Positions 3,767 to 25,440 of a stretch of DNA of 64,000 nucleotides are shown here, in pieces. The position numbers and the translations under genes were made by a program. How positions within the stretch are numbered: the first letter of the stretch is position 1; every line of letters begins with the position of its first letter. Source of the DNA: Shinella sp. CPCC 101442 (lineage in GTDB: Bacteria; Pseudomonadota; Alphaproteobacteria; Rhizobiales; Rhizobiaceae); the NCBI RefSeq assembly GCF_024704725.1, contig NZ_JALIQS010000003.1, positions 1 through 64,000 on the forward strand, given 5' to 3'. The notes under the pieces were generated by a model that was not told where the DNA came from, ran no database searches, and saw nothing but the letters and a program-made list of their open reading frames with translations.

Positions 3767-5575
3767 CTAAAACGCCTTTGCGGCATCCAGCATGCGGAAT
3801 TGTATGCGCCGGCTGCCCTGCCAGCTGTCCGCCGAAAGCGTGCCGGCGATGTGTGCGGCCTGGCCGCGCTCCTTCATCAGGAAGGTACCGAGATCCGCAT
3901 CCGCGGCGCGGAAGGCCATGGCATCGAGGCGACCACCATCGGGGCCTTCCAGGCTGACCCTCAGGTGATTGACGCCGACGGGGCGCACGTCGCGAATGCG
4001 GTGCGCCGGCAGCGCGAAGATCGGCTGCGGATGGCCGGAGCCGTAGGGGCCGGCATGTTCGAGCTGGTCGGCAAGCGCCAGCGTCGCCCCCGTGGCGCTG
4101 AGGGCCCCATCGATTTTCAGCGTCTCCACGGCCACGAGATCGCGCACCGTGCGCTCCGCCTTCTCCTCGAAGAAACCGCGCAGGCGGCCGAGTTTTTCCC
4201 GTTCCACCGTCAGACCGGCCGCCATGGCGTGGCCACCGCCCTTGACCAGAATGCCCTCGTCCACGGCGGCGCGCACCATTCTGCCCATGTCGAAACCGCT
4301 GATCGAGCGCCCGGAACCGGTGCCCTTGCCCGAGGGGTCGAAGGCGATGGCGAAGGCCGGGCGGCGAAAACGATCTTTCAGGCGGGAGGCGAGCAGGCCG
4401 ACCACGCCGGGATGCCAGCCCTCGCGCGCCGTCAGAATGACGGAAGCACCCTCGCCCGTGCCGTATTCCGCCTGCGCCTCGGCCTCGGCTTCGGCCAGCA
4501 TCGCGGCCTCCATGGCCTGGCGCTCCCGGTTGAGCTCATCAAGCTGTTTTGCAATGCGCTCCGCTTCGCCCGGCTCGTCGATGGTCAGGAGCCGGCTGCC
4601 GAGCGCCGCATCGCCGATGCGCCCACCGGCATTGATGCGCGGCCCGACGAGGAAGCCGAGATGGTAGGGTGTCACCGGTCCACCGATGCCCGCCTGCTTC
4701 AGCAGCGCCGTCAGCCCGGCATTGCCGAGATGGCGCGCGGCGACAAGGCCCTTCACCACATAGGCGCGGTTCAACCCCTTCAGCGGAACGACGTCACAGA
4801 CCGTGGACAAGGCCACGAGGTCGAGCATGGAAAGCAGGTCGAGGGTTTTCGCCCGCGCATCGCCGCGCTCCCGCAGCAGCCGCTGCAGCGCCACCAGCAC
4901 GAGGAAGACGACGCCGGCAGCCGAAAGATGCCCCTGCCCCGATAGATCGTCCTCGCGGTTGGGATTGACCAGCGCATGAGCCGGCGGCAGGTTCTCGCCG
5001 ACCTGGTGATGATCGATGACGACGACATCGATGCCGCGTTCGCGGGCGACGGCGAGCGATTCATGGCTCGTCGAGCCGCAATCGACCGTGACGATCAGCT
5101 GCGCACCGCGATCGATGAGCTGGCCGATGGCATTCGGATTCGGCCCGTAGCCCTCGAAAATGCGGTCGGGAATGTAGATTTCCGCTTCGACGCCAAAATG
5201 CGCGAGGAAGCGGTAAAGCAGCGCCGAGGACGACGCACCGTCAACGTCATAGTCGCCGAAAATCGCCACGCGCTCGCGCCGCTCGACGGCACGCGCCAGC
5301 CGCTCCGTCGCGGCCTCGCAGTCCATCAGGCTGTAAGGCTCCGGCATCAGCCGGCGCAGCGTCGGGTCGAGGAATTCCAGCGCGGTGTCGAAGGGGACGC
5401 CGCGACCGGCCAACACGCGCGAAATCAGATCCGGCAGGCCATGGTTCTGGCTCATCGCCAGCGCCCGGTTCTCACCCGCCTGGTCGAGCCGCGCCACCCA
5501 GCGCTGCCCGGTGGCCGAACGCTCGACACCGAGAAAGGCGCGGCTGACGGGGTCTGCGTTTTCCAACATGCTCAT
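3767..5575 (-). CDS. recJ: Single-stranded-DNA-specific exonuclease RecJ
   Basis: This 5'-3' single-strand DNA exonuclease acts in recombination (RecF pathway), mismatch and base-excision repair. It has 602 residues, a normal length. The DHH-superfamily motifs are present: FGDYDVDGASSSALL near 115-130, VTVDCGS, and VIDHHQ near 190. A DHHA1 region with GSGRSISGFD and VKGGGHAMAAG follows, then the C-terminal OB region. The start at 5575 is supported by CAGGAG five bases upstream. It is the last gene of a minus-strand run after hom, with about 90 bp between them. Confidence 0.96.
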   Translation of the reverse strand: MSMLENADPVSRAFLGVERSATGQRWVARLDQAGENRALAMSQNHGLPDLISRVLAGRGVPFDTALEFLDPTLRRLMPEPYSLMDCEAATERLARAVERRERVAIFGDYDVDGASSSALLYRFLAHFGVEAEIYIPDRIFEGYGPNPNAIGQLIDRGAQLIVTVDCGSTSHESLAVARERGIDVVVIDHHQVGENLPPAHALVNPNREDDLSGQGHLSAAGVVFLVLVALQRLLRERGDARAKTLDLLSMLDLVALSTVCDVVPLKGLNRAYVVKGLVAARHLGNAGLTALLKQAGIGGPVTPYHLGFLVGPRINAGGRIGDAALGSRLLTIDEPGEAERIAKQLDELNRERQAMEAAMLAEAEAEAQAEYGTGEGASVILTAREGWHPGVVGLLASRLKDRFRRPAFAIAFDPSGKGTGSGRSISGFDMGRMVRAAVDEGILVKGGGHAMAAGLTVEREKLGRLRGFFEEKAERTVRDLVAVETLKIDGALSATGATLALADQLEHAGPYGSGHPQPIFALPAHRIRDVRPVGVNHLRVSLEGPDGGRLDAMAFRAADADLGTFLMKERGQAAHIAGTLSADSWQGSRRIQFRMLDAAKAF

Positions 5576-18846: not shown

Positions 18847-20820
18847 TCACGCCTTACCGAGCTTGCGCTTGACATCCGGCGGCGTGGCTTCGAGCGACAG
18901 CGAGGCGATGGCTTCTTCCAGCGACATCGGCGTCTGGTTCTGCGAACCGAGGCGGCGGATGTTAACGGTGCGCTCCTCCGCCTCCCGCTTGCCGCAGACG
19001 ACGATGACCGGAACCTTGGTCACCGAATGCTCGCGGACCTTGTAGTTGATCTTCTCGTTGCGGAAGTCGGTCTCGACGACCAGACCGGCATCGCGCAGCA
19101 GTTCCGCCACCTCGCGGCCATAGTCGTCCGCCTCAGAGGTGATGGTTGCCACCACCACCTGCATCGGCGCGATCCACAGCGGCATGTGCCCGGCAAAGTT
19201 CTCGATGAGAATGCCGAGGAACCGTTCCATCGAGCCGCAGATGGCGCGGTGGATCATCACCGGCTGCTTCTTGTCGGAGTTCTGGTCGATATAGAAGGCG
19301 CCGAAGCGTTCCGGCAGGTTGAAGTCGACCTGCGTGGTGCCGCACTGCCATTCGCGGCCGATGGCGTCCTTCAGCGTGTATTCGAATTTCGGCCCGTAGA
19401 ACGCACCCTCGCCCGGCAGGATGCCGGTCTTGATGCGCCCACCGGACTGCGCCTCGATCTGCTTCAGCACATCCATCATGACGCTTTCCGCCCGGTCCCA
19501 CAGCGCATCGGAACCGACGCGCTTTTCCGGACGGGTCGAAAGCTTCACGACGACCTCGTCGAACCCGAAGTCCTTGTAGACCGAGAGGATGAGGTCGTTG
19601 ATGCGCAGGCATTCCGCCGCCATCTGCTCGTCGGTGCAGAAGACATGCGCATCGTCCTGCGTGAAACCGCGCACACGCATCAGCCCGTGCAGCGCGCCGG
19701 AAGGTTCATAGCGATGCACATTGCCAAATTCTGCAAGGCGAACAGGCAGTTCGCGATAGGACTTCAAGCCATGCTTGAAGATCTGCACATGGCCCGGGCA
19801 GTTCATCGGCTTCAGCGCGAAGACGCGCTCGTCGTCGGTCTCGTCACCGGCAACGGTCACCTTGAACATGTTGTCGCGGTACCAACCCCAGTGGCCAGAC
19901 GTTTCCCACAGCGACTTGTCGAGCACCTGCGGCGCGTTCACCTCTTCATAGGTGCCGGAAAGACGACGGCGCATATAGGCGACGAGCGTCTGGAACATGC
20001 GCCAGCCCTTGCCGTGCCAGAACACGACGCCGGGACCCTCCTCCTGGAAATGGAACAGGTCCATTTCGCGGCCGAGGCGACGGTGGTCGCGCTTCTCGGC
20101 CTCCGCGAGGATGTGCAGGTAGCTGTCGAGCTCCTCCTGCGTGCGCCAGGCGGTGCCGTAGATGCGCGTCAGCATCGGATTGTTGCTGTCGCCACGCCAA
20201 TAGGCGCCCGCCACCTTCATCAGCTTGAAGGCCGTGCCGATCTGGCCGGTCGCGGCCATGTGCGGACCACGACACAGGTCGAACCAGTCGCCCTGGTAAT
20301 AGATTTTCAGGTCCTGCCCCGCCGGGATCGCATCGACCAGCTCGACCTTGTAGGCCTCGCCCTTGGCGGCAAAGACTTCCTTCGCCTTGTCGCGCGACCA
20401 GATTTCCCGGGTAAACGGCTTGTTGCGCTGAATGATCTCCTTCATGCGCTTTTCGATCTTCGGCAGATCGTCCGGCGTGAAGGGTTCGTTCTTGGCAAAG
20501 TCGTAATAGAAGCCGTTGTCGATGACCGGACCGATGGTCACCTGCGTGCCGGGCCAAAGCTCCTGCACGGCCTCGGCCATCACATGCGCGGCATCGTGCC
20601 GGATCAGCTCCAGCGCACGATCGTCCTCGCGCGTGACAATCTCGATCCGCCCGTTGGAAACGGTCTCGGAGAGATCGCGCAGCTCGCCATCGAGCGCAAT
20701 CGCAATCGCCTTCTTGGCCAAGGACTTGGAAATCGCCTCGGCGACATCACGGCCCGTCGAGCCCGCGGGATATTCGCGGACGGAGCCATCGGGAAAAGTC
20801 AGGGAAACAGGTGCAGACAT
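18847..20820 (-). CDS. thrS: Threonyl-tRNA synthetase
   Basis: A 657-residue class II synthetase that charges tRNA-Thr. Domains in order: N-terminal TGS ([20 protein letters not shown]), editing domain with [11 protein letters not shown] (zinc-site/editing His), catalytic core with [15 protein letters not shown] (zinc Cys), [14 protein letters not shown], and the anticodon-binding domain ([15 protein letters not shown]). The start at 20820 is supported by GGAG eight bases upstream. Its 5' end and leader are repeated at 21538-21712; see the repeat entries. Confidence 0.98.
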
Positions 20821-20936
20821 CAAAAATCTCCTATCCAGTCCCGCCAACGAATGCGGGTGGTATGCGAGGGTAATAGCCGGAGAGCCGGCGCGTGCGTCGC
20901 GCGGTATACGGGGATTTTTGGGGGATTGAAAGGGGT
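20765..20936 (-). repeat. thrS leader and first codons, copy 1 (functional)
   Basis: This covers the first about 19 codons of thrS plus about 115 bp upstream. The leader holds a small hairpin GCCGG-4 nt-CCGGC (around 20877-20890), the block CCCGC...GCGGG (around 20839-20856) and the ribosome-binding site GGAG. A second, clearly homologous copy lies at 21538-21712 in the same orientation, with small indels and a different hairpin loop but a kept stem. Confidence 0.85.
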
Positions 20937-20950
20937 GGTCGGGCACGGGA

Positions 20951-21478
20951 TCAATGTGTTCGTGTAATCCCGCATTCTTTAATCCAGGCATACGGAACAA
21001 CATTCACCGCGGTGTTCGGCTCCACCTCAAACAAGATCATGTGACTATAACTCCAGATATAGGGCACGCAGTCTTTTAGAACGGCGGCATGAACCTCGAA
21101 CTGAGGCTCGTCGAACACTCGCCGAAGAGACCAGAAGAATGATCGCTGCATTTGCCTGTCCGGGCTAAACCGGACGATCGTCTCGTTTCTTCGCCAATCA
21201 GCGTAAGTACCGATCGAAAACACGTTCAACAGCATGCAGAGCGCCACAAACACAGGCCAACGAAAGCTGCCGGCGCTGGGAGGAATGACGCGAAAAGCGA
21301 TCAACACCGAAAGCGCAATCGAGAAAATTAGCGCGTAACCACCGCCTTCGGTACCGAGCGGGCTTCCGAATAAACCGAGAATACCAATCGGCGTCAGAAG
21401 ACTTCCCGTCGTTGTCAGCGCGACGAGACAATAGACGACGATGCAAAGGAGAAACGATACAAACTGAGGAGCAGTCAT
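20951..21478 (-). CDS. Small membrane protein of unknown function downstream of a thrS-derived leader
   Basis: A 175-residue protein with three hydrophobic segments (about 5-25, 47-65, 73-91) followed by a soluble C-terminal half with [19 protein letters not shown] and [15 protein letters not shown] do not recognise the family. The ATG at 21478 overlaps the stop of a 39-codon thrS-like frame as ATGA, so its translation is probably coupled to a peptide that starts with the ThrRS N-terminus. It lies between the two thrS leader copies and is AT-richer than thrS. Confidence 0.68.
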
Positions 21479-21594
21479 ATAGCCCTGATTGCCGACAGCT
21501 TCGAAAGCACTTCCGACACGTTACGGCCCATCAAGTGTGCGGGGTATTCGCGGACGGAGCCATCGGGGAAAGTCAGGGAAACAGGTGCAGACAT
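21475..21594 (-). pseudogene. 39-codon thrS 5'-fragment
   Basis: From the ATG at 21594 the frame reads the same first 19 residues as ThrRS, then diverges (AHLMGRNVSEVLSK against [14 protein letters not shown] in the real gene) and stops after 39 codons. It keeps the thrS ribosome-binding site. It could be a dead remnant of a diverged thrS allele, or a leader peptide that feeds ribosomes into the membrane-protein gene through the ATGA overlap at 21475-21478. It is too short to be an enzyme. Confidence 0.75.
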
Positions 21595-21712
21595 TCAAAA
21601 ATCTCCTATCCAGTCCCGCCAACGAATGCGGGTGGTGTGCGAGAGGAAGTGGCCGGATGCGCCGGCGCGTTGCGGTGGGAGGTATACGGGGATTTTGGGG
21701 GATTGGAAGAGT
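21538..21712 (-). repeat. thrS leader and first codons, copy 2
   Basis: It is homologous to 20765-20936: the same ATG context, the same CCCGC/GCGGG block and GGTATACG, and a hairpin GCCGG-5 nt-CCGGC whose stem is kept although the loop has changed. The two copies are direct repeats bounding the membrane-protein gene at 20951-21478, and may mark an insertion or an unequal duplication at the thrS 5' end. Confidence 0.85.
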
Positions 21713-21802
21713 CATCTTCTTAGTGTCATCACCACTCGCCCGATAAAATATCACCCAAAGCGATATTCGATTTAACTCTCACCGCCACGCGAGTTATATC
21801 TG

Positions 21803-22049
21803 GCTCGTGATGATTACTCATATACTGAACCCGACAACATGTGGGACCTAGAGTCCTGTGGGGATCGTAGATCCCCGAATTAAATCCGTTGTCTGGCAGG
21901 GCCGGCAGCCACTCGCTGCACCCTCCGGGCTCGGGTGCAGCATGTTCAAGGTCAAACGTCGCTGAACAGAATCCTGTTTCTACGGGCACCAGTAATTCTG
22001 CTGGTGGAAACATGGAGAAATCGAATGAGTGATAAAGATCATCACCAGC
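21803..22049 (+). ncRNA. Candidate retron-type structured RNA (msr-msd)
   Basis: This is an AT/GC-mixed stretch without a long frame, upstream of a reverse transcriptase gene. A long-range inverted repeat encloses it: 21803-21821 pairs with 22025-22049 in three blocks, GCT/AGC, GTGATGAT/ATCATCAC and ACTCAT/ATGAGT, with small internal loops. Inside are five hairpins: 21843-21857, a perfect 7-bp stem 21860-21876, a perfect 9-bp stem 21915-21941, a 6-bp stem 21943-21968, and an 11-bp interrupted stem 21975-22011 (GTTTC/GAAAC and CACCAG/CTGGTG). The layout (a1/a2-like ends, short hairpins first, a longer one last, RT downstream) fits retron msr-msd. I could not place the branching guanosine, and the 3' arm overlaps the start of the small frame at 22025. 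Confidence 0.55.
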
Positions 22050-22159
22050 GACGGCGTCGCGAATTGAGTATGGTATTGATCTTCAAGGTCATTACCGCAT
22101 TGGGTCAGGCAGTTTTTTATCTTGCCCGCCTTTGGTTCTGGATGACAGACCGACAATAA
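22025..22159 (+). CDS. 44-residue single-pass membrane peptide of the retron-like module
   Basis: The frame starts at ATG 22025, with GGAG seven bases before it. The product has a very basic N-terminus (QRRRRE) and one hydrophobic helix (about residues 16-40, MVLIFKVITALGQAVFYLARL). Small membrane peptides are used as toxins in type I toxin-antitoxin systems, and some retron effectors have membrane helices, so an effector role is possible, but that is inference. It precedes the XRE gene by 34 bp on the same strand. Its first 25 bases form the 3' arm of the inverted repeat around the candidate RNA. Confidence 0.5.
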   Translation: MSDKDHHQRRRRELSMVLIFKVITALGQAVFYLARLWFWMTDRQ

Positions 22160-22193
22160 GCGACGACCTTGAAATAGCTTCAGGAGAAAAACC

Positions 22194-22514
22194 ATGAAGA
22201 ACCGTCGCCCTATGATTAACGATGCACTTCGGTTGCTTCGCCTGTATCTCGGTCTTTCGCAAAAAGAACTATCAACTGCACTTAACGTCTCTCAATCAAT
22301 GATCTAAGAGGTGGAAAGCGGCGCAAAATCTGTCTCCATGGAACTCTTGGAACGCTACAGTGAGAAATTCGACGTGCGAATGTCGCAGCTTTTGTTTTTT
22401 GCGGAAGAGCTAGATGGCCAGCCAATAAAGACCAGAGGGAAGCTCATTGTCGCTAGTCATGTTCTGTCGTTGCTAGAAAAATTATCACCAAAAAAAATAG
22501 TCAATGCTTCGTAG
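22194..22514 (+). pseudogene. XRE-family helix-turn-helix regulator with an in-frame stop
   Basis: With CAGGAG upstream, the frame from ATG 22194 reads a typical XRE domain (LRLYLGLSQKELSTALNVSQ then SMI), hits TAA at 22305-22307 (codon 38) and goes on in the same frame for 68 more codons (EVESGAKSVSMELLERYSEK) to TAG at 22512. Related proteins usually have Ser at the stop position (S-x-I-S-x-x-E-x-G), so one base change TCA to TAA would explain it. The stop sits in or just after the recognition helix and would destroy DNA binding. Its end overlaps the RT start by 11 bp. It is either a real nonsense mutation or a sequencing error. Confidence 0.85.
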
Positions 22515-23550
22515 ATTTAAACGAAACAATACTGAGCGATATGAGCTGGCGAGGTCCCCTCTTGGGCAGCACCCCACGCAACGCGACATTGGTGCGTTAT
22601 TGGGTGAGACTAGGGACGATCTTCGCCGGCTCGTCGACTACAAAGAGCAGTTCGTTGTTCGACGCATTGTGAAAATTGGAAAAAAACAAAAAGTTCGCGA
22701 TCTGCGCTATCCAGTCTCGAGACTCCGGCGTGTTCATGAACGGCTTAAATTTCATCTGAACAAAATTAAGCAACCCAGTTACCTCTTTAACCCGAGAAAG
22801 AAACGAGGGCAGCGCGACAATGCTGCTCATCACCTTGATCAAAAGCAATATTTAACCATTGACTTGAAACAATTCTATCCGTCAACGACGTCAGAAATGG
22901 TGAAGCATTGGTTCAGAAGCGAACTGGGGATGTACGAAGATGTAGCAGGTCTTCTTACTCACCTTTGTACAATTGATGGTCGCGTATCTCTCGGCTCCCC
23001 CGTCACGCCGGTTTTGTGCTCGCTTGTTCATCGCGCGATGTTCGATGAAATTGCAAACCTCTGTGATCAACACAATCTTCGCTATTCTGTCTGGGTTGAC
23101 GATCTAACAATCTCTGGAGAGTTTGTGCCCGGTATAGTCGTTGCGGAGATTAGGGAAATCATCCGTCATGCCTGCTTGAAATCTCATAAAATCAGATACC
23201 GGACAGGTAACAGGCCAGTTTTTGTTACCGGGGTTGGCGTAGTTGGCGCAAAATTAGCTGCGCCAAACACGCTCAATCTAAAAATCAAAGAACTGTGGGA
23301 AAATCTCCATAGCGCTGAGACGCTTACCGAGAAAGATTCTTGCATTCAGGCTTTGCTAACCAACCTTGGAACCGTGCGATACATCGTAGGTTATGAATCC
23401 CTGATTGGTCAAAAGGCATCGAATCAAATGAACATGCTGCGTCAGAAGCGAGCAAAGCTTTACCGCCTTGACGCTCAAAAAACCAAACTGCGTCGGCACA
23501 ATTTAGCTGAGGACGTTTCAACATCGTTGGATGCGCCTTTTGACTTGTAA
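22504..23550 (+). CDS. Retron-type reverse transcriptase with WVDD active site
   Basis: The protein has 348 residues. RT motifs in order: NAAHH near 106-110 (retron-like NAxxH), YLTIDLKQFYPSTT with the first catalytic Asp at 120, SLGSPVTPVLCSLV near 162-175 (motif B), VWVDDLTISG with the catalytic Asp pair at 199-200, and VFVTGVGVVG near 239-248 (the VTG motif shared by retron RTs). The usual YADD box is WVDD here, an uncommon change that keeps both aspartates. A basic C-terminal region (QKRAKLYRLDAQKTKLRRH) may bind the RNA. The start overlaps the XRE gene by 11 bp, so they are translationally coupled. There is no maturase/HNH domain, so it is not a group II intron. The coding DNA is AT-richer than its surroundings, in line with transfer. 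Confidence 0.9.
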   Translation: MLRRFKRNNTERYELARSPLGQHPTQRDIGALLGETRDDLRRLVDYKEQFVVRRIVKIGKKQKVRDLRYPVSRLRRVHERLKFHLNKIKQPSYLFNPRKKRGQRDNAAHHLDQKQYLTIDLKQFYPSTTSEMVKHWFRSELGMYEDVAGLLTHLCTIDGRVSLGSPVTPVLCSLVHRAMFDEIANLCDQHNLRYSVWVDDLTISGEFVPGIVVAEIREIIRHACLKSHKIRYRTGNRPVFVTGVGVVGAKLAAPNTLNLKIKELWENLHSAETLTEKDSCIQALLTNLGTVRYIVGYESLIGQKASNQMNMLRQKRAKLYRLDAQKTKLRRHNLAEDVSTSLDAPFDL

Positions 23551-23974
23551 GCCGGGCCTTCCTAATCTTGTTGCACGCCAATTTTCCCCACCCCCAAAAC
23601 CTGCCATATCCTGATCATCCTTCCGCCGCCGGACGGATCCCGTAACGTGTCGATGCAGGCGGGAGGAGGCGCTTTCGTTTCCTGCCGAAACGTACGGCAG
23701 GGGCGAAAGAGGCGTGGAGCGCCGTGATGACCCAAGGCCTTTTCCCGTGTCTTACGAGATCGGGCCGGCGGGAGTTGCGGCGGGCGAGGCTTCCCCCCTC
23801 CCCGGGTCGCGGGGTCAGCTCGGGTCCGCCATGCAAGCATTGCCGCGCATGCCCCCGAAAAGTGCGTCAGCGGTTTTCGGACAAGGCGATGCGAAGACAC
23901 TGCGCAGCGAAGCATCGCCACGCTGGAAGGAGGACAAAACCGCCTACGAAGAACGCCTGGGCCACATGAAAGCA
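23551..23974. other. Intergenic region after the RT gene; no gene seen
   Basis: About 420 bp return to high GC. There is a GC-rich minus-strand frame at 23562-23921, but its composition (Arg/Pro/Gly/Ser) looks non-coding and it has no ribosome-binding site or family. I see no terminator for the RT transcript and no repeat that would clearly mark the right edge of the retron module. Confidence 0.5.
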
Positions 23975-24024: not shown

Positions 24025-25440
24025 TCAGGCGAACAGGAAGTCGCCCTTGTTGAGGCTGCTTTCAGCCACGCCTTTGAGCAGCAGCGTGTCGGATCCAGCG
24101 GTCAGAAGCACGCCGTCATCCGTATCGACGGCATGGCTTTTGAAGGACGAGAACGATGTCACGCCGGCCAATTTGACGAGGCTGATGAAATCCTCCCCCT
24201 TGAAATCATCGATGACGTCATGCCCATCCCCCCGCGCGAAGACGAAGGTGTCGGCACCGGCGCCGCCCTTCATCCTGTCGTTTCCGGAAGATGAAATAAT
24301 GGTGTCGTCGCCCGCGCCGCCCCAGAAACGGTTCTTCGCTTCATTGCCGATCAGCAGGTCATCGCCAGCACCACCCTTTGCGTTCTCGATCACGGCGCCA
24401 TTGGCGATGGAGAAGCCGCCGCCGGTACCCTTGAGGCCGTTGGTTCCTTCGCGCAGGATCTCGCTGAACGAGCCACCGGCATTGTAGGCGGCGGAGGTGA
24501 TCTGCTTGCGGATGACGCTGGAAAGATCGTCATAGAAATCGGTGGTCTTCAGCGCAGCCAGCGTTCTTGCCATGGCTCCGGTATTGCCCGACGTGTTCAG
24601 GGTCGCATCGAACAGGTTGATGATGCTGTAGGCACCACCCGAGACGCTGATCGTATCCGAGCCGCCGGTGTCCCATACGCATGCATAGGCGCGACCGATC
24701 GACATATCGCCTTCACCAAGGTCGAGCGACGCGCTTCGGACGGACGTCAAGCGATAGGTGGACGCGCCTTCGGCATAGTCGTCCTTGCCGTATAGTGCCT
24801 GCAAGGCGGCAATATCAAGCGCCATATAGGTAACGGCATGGCCGTATTTCACGCCCCCGCTCGCGGGATTGTACGACATGACCGAGTAGCGCTCATTGTC
24901 CAGCACACCGGTTACCGCGAGCGGTTCGCCCGTGTCCTCGTTATGCGTGTGCAACAGGCCCATCGAATGGCCGATCTCGTGCAGAACGGTCCAGCTCGCA
25001 TACTGGCCACCACCCTTTTCAGCGGTCGCCATCAGCGCTTCGGCGCTCGAATTGAAAACCCCCATCTGCCAGCTGTCGCCGGCGGCGCGGTGTGATGTGC
25101 CGGGGAACGGGAAAAAGCCTTCCAGGTCCTCATCGATCGGCGCCGACGAGCTGACGAGGACAAGATCCGCCTTTGTCGTGTCCGTGGTTCGGGTCAGGTT
25201 GAGATCCGTTACTGCCGAAAGCGAATTGTAAGCCTTGAGAGCAACACTCTTGAAAGCAAAGACGGCATCCGGATTTCCTGTAAACTCCTCGCTGAAGGAG
25301 GACCTGAACTCGGAATCCAAGGATAGGCTATTCTGGTTTCCGAAATAATACTGTAGATTTACCTCTCCCCAGACCTTGCTTTCCGTTATCGCATCGAGAA
25401 GAGAATTGCTAATCTTTGGTGCCTTGACAATTTTCGCCAT
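24025..25440 (-). CDS. Serralysin-like M10 family metalloprotease with RTX C-terminus
   Basis: A secreted zinc endopeptidase of 471 residues. The catalytic domain has HEIGHSMGLLH (154-164, the extended zinc site of metzincins) and the Met-turn SVMSYNPAS. The C-terminal part has RTX repeats (KGGAGDDLLIGNEAKN, WGGAGDDTI, MKGGAGADTFVFARGDGHD) and ends SSLNKGDFLFA, the kind of tail read by type I secretion systems. There is no Sec signal. Start and tail (MAKIVKAPK / KGDFLFA) resemble those of the RTX protein at 278-3493, so both may use one exporter encoded elsewhere. GGGG lies six bases before the start. Confidence 0.93.
   Translation of the reverse strand: MAKIVKAPKISNSLLDAITESKVWGEVNLQYYFGNQNSLSLDSEFRSSFSEEFTGNPDAVFAFKSVALKAYNSLSAVTDLNLTRTTDTTKADLVLVSSSAPIDEDLEGFFPFPGTSHRAAGDSWQMGVFNSSAEALMATAEKGGGQYASWTVLHEIGHSMGLLHTHNEDTGEPLAVTGVLDNERYSVMSYNPASGGVKYGHAVTYMALDIAALQALYGKDDYAEGASTYRLTSVRSASLDLGEGDMSIGRAYACVWDTGGSDTISVSGGAYSIINLFDATLNTSGNTGAMARTLAALKTTDFYDDLSSVIRKQITSAAYNAGGSFSEILREGTNGLKGTGGGFSIANGAVIENAKGGAGDDLLIGNEAKNRFWGGAGDDTIISSSGNDRMKGGAGADTFVFARGDGHDVIDDFKGEDFISLVKLAGVTSFSSFKSHAVDTDDGVLLTAGSDTLLLKGVAESSLNKGDFLFA

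Follow-up and report, generated by a model that had tools for sequence, protein, structure and literature searches.

Start signals of a small basic peptide lie in the template RNA of a type VI retron, pointing to possible direct control of a hidden toxin by reverse transcription

What is the effector of a retron that consists of a structured RNA, a very small peptide, an XRE gene and a reverse transcriptase (RT), and what keeps it in check? We analyzed such a locus in the window, the whole stretch of 64,000 nt of Shinella DNA, and delineated it at 21747–23550 on the + strand, in the order palindrome and promoter-like boxes, RNA leader, peptide, XRE frame and RT. The preliminary description had put RNA, peptide, XRE gene and RT on one strand in an AT-richer unit; all four were found in the sequence, and the GC content is 47.1% in 21803–23550 versus 61.8% in the whole window. 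Its start at 21803 was too late, as the palindrome and promoter-like boxes begin at 21747. The genes and upstream elements are:

21747–21767, no strand: palindrome AATATCACCCAAAGCGATATT, possible XRE operator (putative function), similar palindromes standing before the −35-like box in relatives
21771–21776, +: putative −35-like box TTTAAC
21795–21800, +: putative −10-like box TATATC; transcription would begin near 21807
22025–22159, +: basic peptide of 44 aa with a single hydrophobic segment, a putative toxin/effector (counterparts in relatives, dN/dS)
22194–22514, +: XRE gene (HTH_VI), interrupted by TAA at 22305–22307; N part 22194–22307, C part from 22308
22504–23550, +: type VI retron RT, 348 aa (RT_VI 1.4e-63; 461 homologues)

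The RT was compared with the retron models of PADLOC-DB 2.0.0, from which both the RT_VI and HTH_VI models were taken. It fits RT_VI best (E-value 1.4e-63), with the next model, III-A, 87 bits lower (3.4e-37), and all ten RTs of our alignment A2 match RT_VI. Searching the PDB with the RT yielded retron RTs as the best matches (5.9e-35) and group II intron RTs far below (3.5e-6), and the Pfam scan returned RVT_1 alone, just under the cut-off, and no maturase domain in the RT. A group II intron origin is rejected on these PADLOC, Pfam and PDB matches, and the earlier assignment to retron RTs stands. The NAxxH and VTG motifs are marks of retron RTs; residues N106, A107 and H110 (NAxxH) and T242 and G243 (the TG of VTG) are invariant in the ten aligned RTs, and the catalytic box of the window RT is WVDD. 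Near the RT and the RNA, Rfam gave no family above gathering, and at E-values up to 10 two chance-level matches to a microRNA and a snoRNA model. The placement of the RT among retrons rests on profile scores, and by its RT_VI and HTH_VI scores the locus at 21747–23550 is a type VI retron; its putative role is probably anti-phage.

A retron with this set of parts had been thought undescribed, which was not supported. RT plus XRE is type VI in PADLOC, and passages of a phage paper from 2021 speak of small auxiliary proteins in retron type VI (PMC8541194). Short proteins encoded ahead of the HTH gene, one of them with a predicted transmembrane segment, are mentioned there as well, so that a small upstream protein as such was already on record; for two phage peptides, TMpred found no transmembrane segment there, and “membrane” may therefore not hold for all peptides. 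With PADLOC type VI our locus shares the RT and XRE models, the overlapping genes and a structured RNA upstream, but no model fits its peptide and its XRE gene is broken. The Shewanella Mu-like prophage MuM16-1, KS5, P2_2H1 and ST147-VIM1phi7.1 share the RT, an overlapping HTH gene and a short upstream protein with it, whereas the passages of PMC8541194 take HTH and RT as the element and name neither a function of the short protein nor an RNA. Parts of further papers describe the KS5 RT (PMC3091744), retrons in P2-like hotspots (PMC9122126) and Retron VI in one Vibrio strain (PMC13249269).

The XRE gene had been listed as a plain component; it is present and not intact. Scanned apart, the pieces before and after the in-frame TAA (22305–22307) match HTH_VI at 2.5e-8 (profile positions 1–31) and 4.6e-15 (33–91), respectively. 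Close relatives carry Ser at the position of the TAA, and a crude pattern placed Ser ahead of E-x-E in 70 of the 93 related loci, with 13 unmatched and 10 showing other residues, partly from elsewhere in the protein. The local retron copy may thus be decaying, with a broken XRE gene; alternatively, the TAA may be an assembly error. The RT start (22504) overlaps the end of the XRE frame (22514), and RT synthesis may therefore drop as well when XRE is no longer translated. Upstream, a palindrome before a −35-like box was recovered in 40 of 67 loci by a pattern that proved too crude, and the −35-like position reads TTTGAC in 8 of 21 other close loci and holds other TTGA/TTGC-type boxes in the remaining ones.

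For comparison, we gathered related loci from plasmid records (164, of which five were read), whole genomes, genome contigs and viral contigs (16). The search of genome contigs with the ten-RT alignment supplied the best 80 of 89 relatives, and with a single RT as query it confirmed no relative. An XRE match was found in 95 of the 112 gathered loci, counting the window itself and one weak match (L106). The 461 RT protein homologues, of which 120 were listed, stand apart from this comparison of locus context. Two loci had features of their own. The RT of a Collinsella locus (L096; Actinomycetota) matches RT_VI at 2.9e-68, which indicates that type VI reaches beyond proteobacteria and cyanobacteria, and in Microvirga (L011) a TIR-domain gene (3980–4939), possibly an extra effector, follows the type VI RT.

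A counterpart of the peptide precedes the XRE gene in 67 of the 78 loci assessed by a mechanical rule, compared to 40 of 2606 random positions. The rule called for an ATG, an SD-like motif, a length of 35–75 aa, a stop no further than about 125 bases from the XRE start and four or more basic residues ahead of a 17-residue stretch whose mean hydropathy is at least 0.6; the 78 loci exclude the window's own (L001), duplicates and nine unassessable loci. By eye, the peptide is also present in the 11 loci that failed the rule (L012, L020, L024, L025, L030, L054, L063, L086, L090, L091 and L093; GTG start in L024 and L091), the partly masked L086 being the weakest. On inspection, these loci had failed because the XRE start was misplaced, the peptide began with GTG, a threshold of the rule was missed or sequence was masked. 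Among the nine unassessable loci it is visible in L010, L060, L083 and L101. Co-occurrence of peptide, XRE and RT is widespread among related loci, and peptide-bearing loci span alphaproteobacteria to cyanobacteria (L063, L065).

Judged by dN/dS, which lies at 0.04–0.91 and below 1 in all 27 equal-length pairs (members shared among pairs; one unequal-length pair dropped), the peptide is under purifying selection. Its layout, a basic N-part followed by a hydrophobic or amphipathic helix, is kept across distant clades. Pfam, NCBIfam, PHROG and PADLOC hold no fitting family (best PADLOC match 0.01, unrelated), and the 73 peptide homologues in the protein collection are unnamed or called “hypothetical protein”. 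Annotation often overlooks the peptide, which is listed in one of the five plasmid records read first. As a small basic peptide with one hydrophobic segment it resembles the toxins of type I toxin-antitoxin systems, and it is the putative effector of the retron.

RNA and peptide gene had been regarded as separate parts. Both exist, but not separately: the SD (GGAG, 22014–22017), the start codon and the codons just after it are engaged in the conserved pairing of the RNA. The elements of the RNA, all on the + strand, are:

21807–21815, +: left arm of helix A (candidate a1)
21843–21857, +: msr stem-loop SL1
21860–21876, +: msr stem-loop SL2, with compensatory pairs
21915–21941, +: msr stem-loop SL3, G+C-rich (consensus fold of 13 loci)
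21945–21953, +: left arm of helix B
21957–21964, +: left arm of helix C
21972–22016, +: msd-like hairpin, its 3′ arm including GGA of the peptide SD
22037–22045, +: right arm of helix A (candidate a2), peptide codons 5–7
22046–22053, +: right arm of helix C, peptide codons 8–10
22159–22173, +: right arm of helix B, from the last base of the peptide stop codon

Folded by itself, the RNA at 21807–22052 forms helix A and reaches −95.1 kcal/mol, whereas shuffled sequences average −73.0 (sd 4.9; z −4.54, 0/200). When extended to 22193, it folds with helices B and C formed and A absent (z −4.93, 0/100). SL1, SL2, SL3 and the msd-like hairpin recur in relatives, and 13 close loci yield a consensus fold with 56 pairs, of which 12 are changed on both sides. 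RNAalifold did not recover the lower msd stem, which is misaligned in the MAFFT alignment it was given. Conservation of the inverted repeats and hairpins in loci with a close RT homologue, on which the preliminary description had staked its reading, was found. A near-invariant CCCG[TA] (21830–21834) and ACGGG (21982–21986) could form a further long-range pair in the close clade, almost without covariation.

To compare helices between loci, we calculated RNA duplex energies of a locus's own arms and of arms swapped between loci, using 5000 permutations. Two sets were used: the close clade of 22 loci including the window, and 29 distant loci, obtained from 40 with the peptide start read by removing 11 near-duplicates; other loci with a peptide, L054, L066 and L090 among them, are outside this set. 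All results are to be read with the arms having been picked after viewing the sequences, and the helices spotted by eye and then tested on the same loci. The SD hairpin is supported, its own arms pairing better than swapped ones, in the close clade (z −6.3, 0/5000) and in the distant loci (z −5.2, 0/5000, without control windows). Helix B, which pairs the msr-msd junction with the stretch following the peptide stop, gave z −5.6 (0/5000) and z −6.6 (0/5000), respectively. Helix C, between the same junction and arginine codons of the peptide, gave z −4.9 (0/5000) in the distant set; in the close clade it barely varies and is not significant (z −1.3, 489/5000). Control windows, applied to helices B and C in the distant set, yielded −0.23 and −0.64 for B and +1.1 and +1.0 for C. 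Matched changes keep helix C in the window, in L010/L028/L034 and in L024. The own partner came top of its row in 5, 5 and 2 of the 29 distant loci for B, hairpin and C, respectively; being so rarely the best, it points to noise from the wide test windows. At least three of the four SD bases are predicted to be paired in the hairpin in 22/22 close and 27/29 distant loci, the exceptions being L056 and L065.

Helix A, which in the window joins the 5′ end of the RNA to codons 5–7, reached z −2.4 in the close clade (40/5000; 34/5000 with shorter arms), and with arms phased by eye 179 of 198 cells were paired there versus 166.2 expected (1/20000). Support for this candidate a1/a2 is confined to the close clade, and it crosses helix C, so that the two are alternative folds or form a pseudoknot. 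As the sole closing helix A is weakened, B and C being better supported in distant loci. The left-arm 9-mer of helix B, TTCAAGGTC, is repeated within the peptide gene at 22082–22090, either as a decoy pairing site or by chance.

Once the helices were defined, we fetched three P2-like phage type VI retrons, KS5, P2_2H1 and ST147-VIM1phi7.1, the latter two nearly alike. All three RTs and both XRE proteins scanned (KS5 and ST147-VIM1phi7.1) match the type VI models. A peptide precedes the XRE gene in each, in P2_2H1 with a 51-aa start within a longer annotated frame. They share the RNA helices of the window locus: each has helix C with 8–13 consecutive pairs, helix B (its window in KS5, L116, chosen separately) and an SD-holding stem, as judged without permutation. 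The overlap of the peptide start site with the template RNA appears to be undescribed; our literature search did not find it, and more may be in print.

A template RNA that carries the start signals of a peptide raises the possibility that a hidden toxin is controlled directly by reverse transcription. We propose, with a probability of about 0.45, that the locus makes a toxin mRNA with a retron-template leader, which is silenced by reverse transcription and RNase H and released by phage interference. The identity of the retron, the conservation of the peptide, the RNA pairing and the predicted pairing of the SD support the proposal; toxicity, the RT start site, msDNA, silencing, trigger and XRE repression we infer as follows. 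Retron RNA, peptide, XRE regulator and RT would share one transcript, and the retron RNA would be the 5′ leader of the mRNA for the small basic, membrane-type peptide, which is probably a toxin. The msd-like hairpin, helix C between junction and arginine codons and helix B between junction and 3′ UTR would shut the SD and start codon. According to passages of PMC8989520, retron RTs initiate at a guanosine adjoining a1/a2, RNase H1 clears away the template and products measure about 40–160 nt. These rules applied to helix A, or a start beside helix C, would place the SD and start codon inside the part copied by the RT. Copying is expected to begin 3′ of the start codon (candidate a2 in codons 5–7) and would run back over the start codon, the SD and the msd hairpin, with RNase H stripping the copied RNA. 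Reverse transcription would thereby sever the translation start from the toxin mRNA and act as an antisense-DNA antitoxin. If a phage blocked RT, RNase H or the cDNA, full-length mRNA would persist, and the peptide would be made, harm the membrane and cause abortive infection. Through the palindrome, the XRE protein would act as a repressor of the promoter. That type VI retrons in general are toxin-antitoxin modules with reverse transcription as the antitoxin, sensing any phage act that stops cDNA synthesis, is a slightly more tentative extension.

Type I toxin-antitoxin systems consist of a small hydrophobic toxin and an antisense RNA, and in hok the mRNA ends engage in long-range pairing. 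The window locus has in common with them a small basic hydrophobic peptide, a start site shut by mRNA folding (here as predicted) and long-range pairing of mRNA ends, whereas its proposed antitoxin is RT-made cDNA in place of antisense RNA. The retrons Ec67, Ec86, Ec78, Ec83, Eco8 and Kva2 share a homologous RT, as seen from PDB matches, and an ncRNA template, but their effectors are separate or fused proteins, and an effector start codon within the template was not found described in the parts of the literature covered.

An ordinary tripartite retron would be the leading rival: the peptide toxin would be neutralised as a protein by RT-msDNA, and the RNA overlap would merely match doses and keep translation low. 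Described effector retrons work in this way according to PMC12548924 and PMC13405049, and a basic peptide could bind RNA or DNA. Where the protein is held by RT-msDNA in these cases (also PMC8989520, in part), our proposal has the mRNA removed instead. By itself, a tripartite arrangement leaves the pairing of the junction with peptide codons and 3′ UTR in distant loci unexplained, and we consider it rather unlikely, though a serious contender. In a switch-on model, infection would lead copying or RT binding to open B/C and the msd hairpin and free the SD; a start site predicted to be shut without RT must be opened by something. According to PMC12039810, the DRT2 effector is made only after phage-triggered reverse transcription, and DRT2 would share with our proposal the control of a toxic product by reverse transcription; there, however, cDNA builds the toxin gene, whereas here it would remove the toxin start site. 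Against the switch-on model, copying with RNase H would destroy the very SD it frees, and in the cases covered by the passages of PMC8989520 no infection is needed for retron RTs to produce msDNA; by a small margin, this is the least probable account.

The peptide might also be non-toxic, a leader or an anchor (for instance a membrane tether, or an RT helper that binds RNA) whose translation regulates XRE/RT synthesis. Helix B overlaps the stop codon and precedes the XRE SD as in a translated attenuator, and the TMpred results for the two phage relatives (PMC8541194, in part) would agree with it. The purifying selection on the peptide and its basic-plus-hydrophobic layout across distant clades argue against this idea, which we hold to be improbable. 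A conserved peptide that starts within the RT template provides type VI with a candidate effector and ties cDNA synthesis to effector dose in a direct, testable way. If silencing is true, this would be the first toxin gene, to our knowledge, silenced by reverse transcription of its own mRNA, with antisense DNA and RNase H standing in for the antisense RNA of type I systems.

The retron lies between thrS and a gene for a serralysin-like protease. The latter, at 24025–25440 on the − strand, encodes a metalloprotease with Peptidase_M10_C and RTX repeats and adjoins the retron. The site behind thrS is a variable spot: sequence matching 21710–23580 is absent at the equivalent place in the three relatives examined, and the nearest relative by thrS (99%, among 20 searched) has a DUF6602-domain gene at the place of the retron (L113, 1650–2525) and an RT of 31% identity elsewhere in its genome. 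In the window, the 5′ end of thrS is duplicated (20725–20932 and 21499–21709, 85% alike), and a 175-aa gene without a Pfam match lies between the copies (20951–21478, − strand). This duplication of the thrS start region suggests cassette exchange; it looks as if cassettes had inserted there one after another. Elsewhere in the same genome (L007; contig C4, 164205–164387), a 98-aa frame contains a second, short stretch resembling an RT, with 38% identity over 61 residues.
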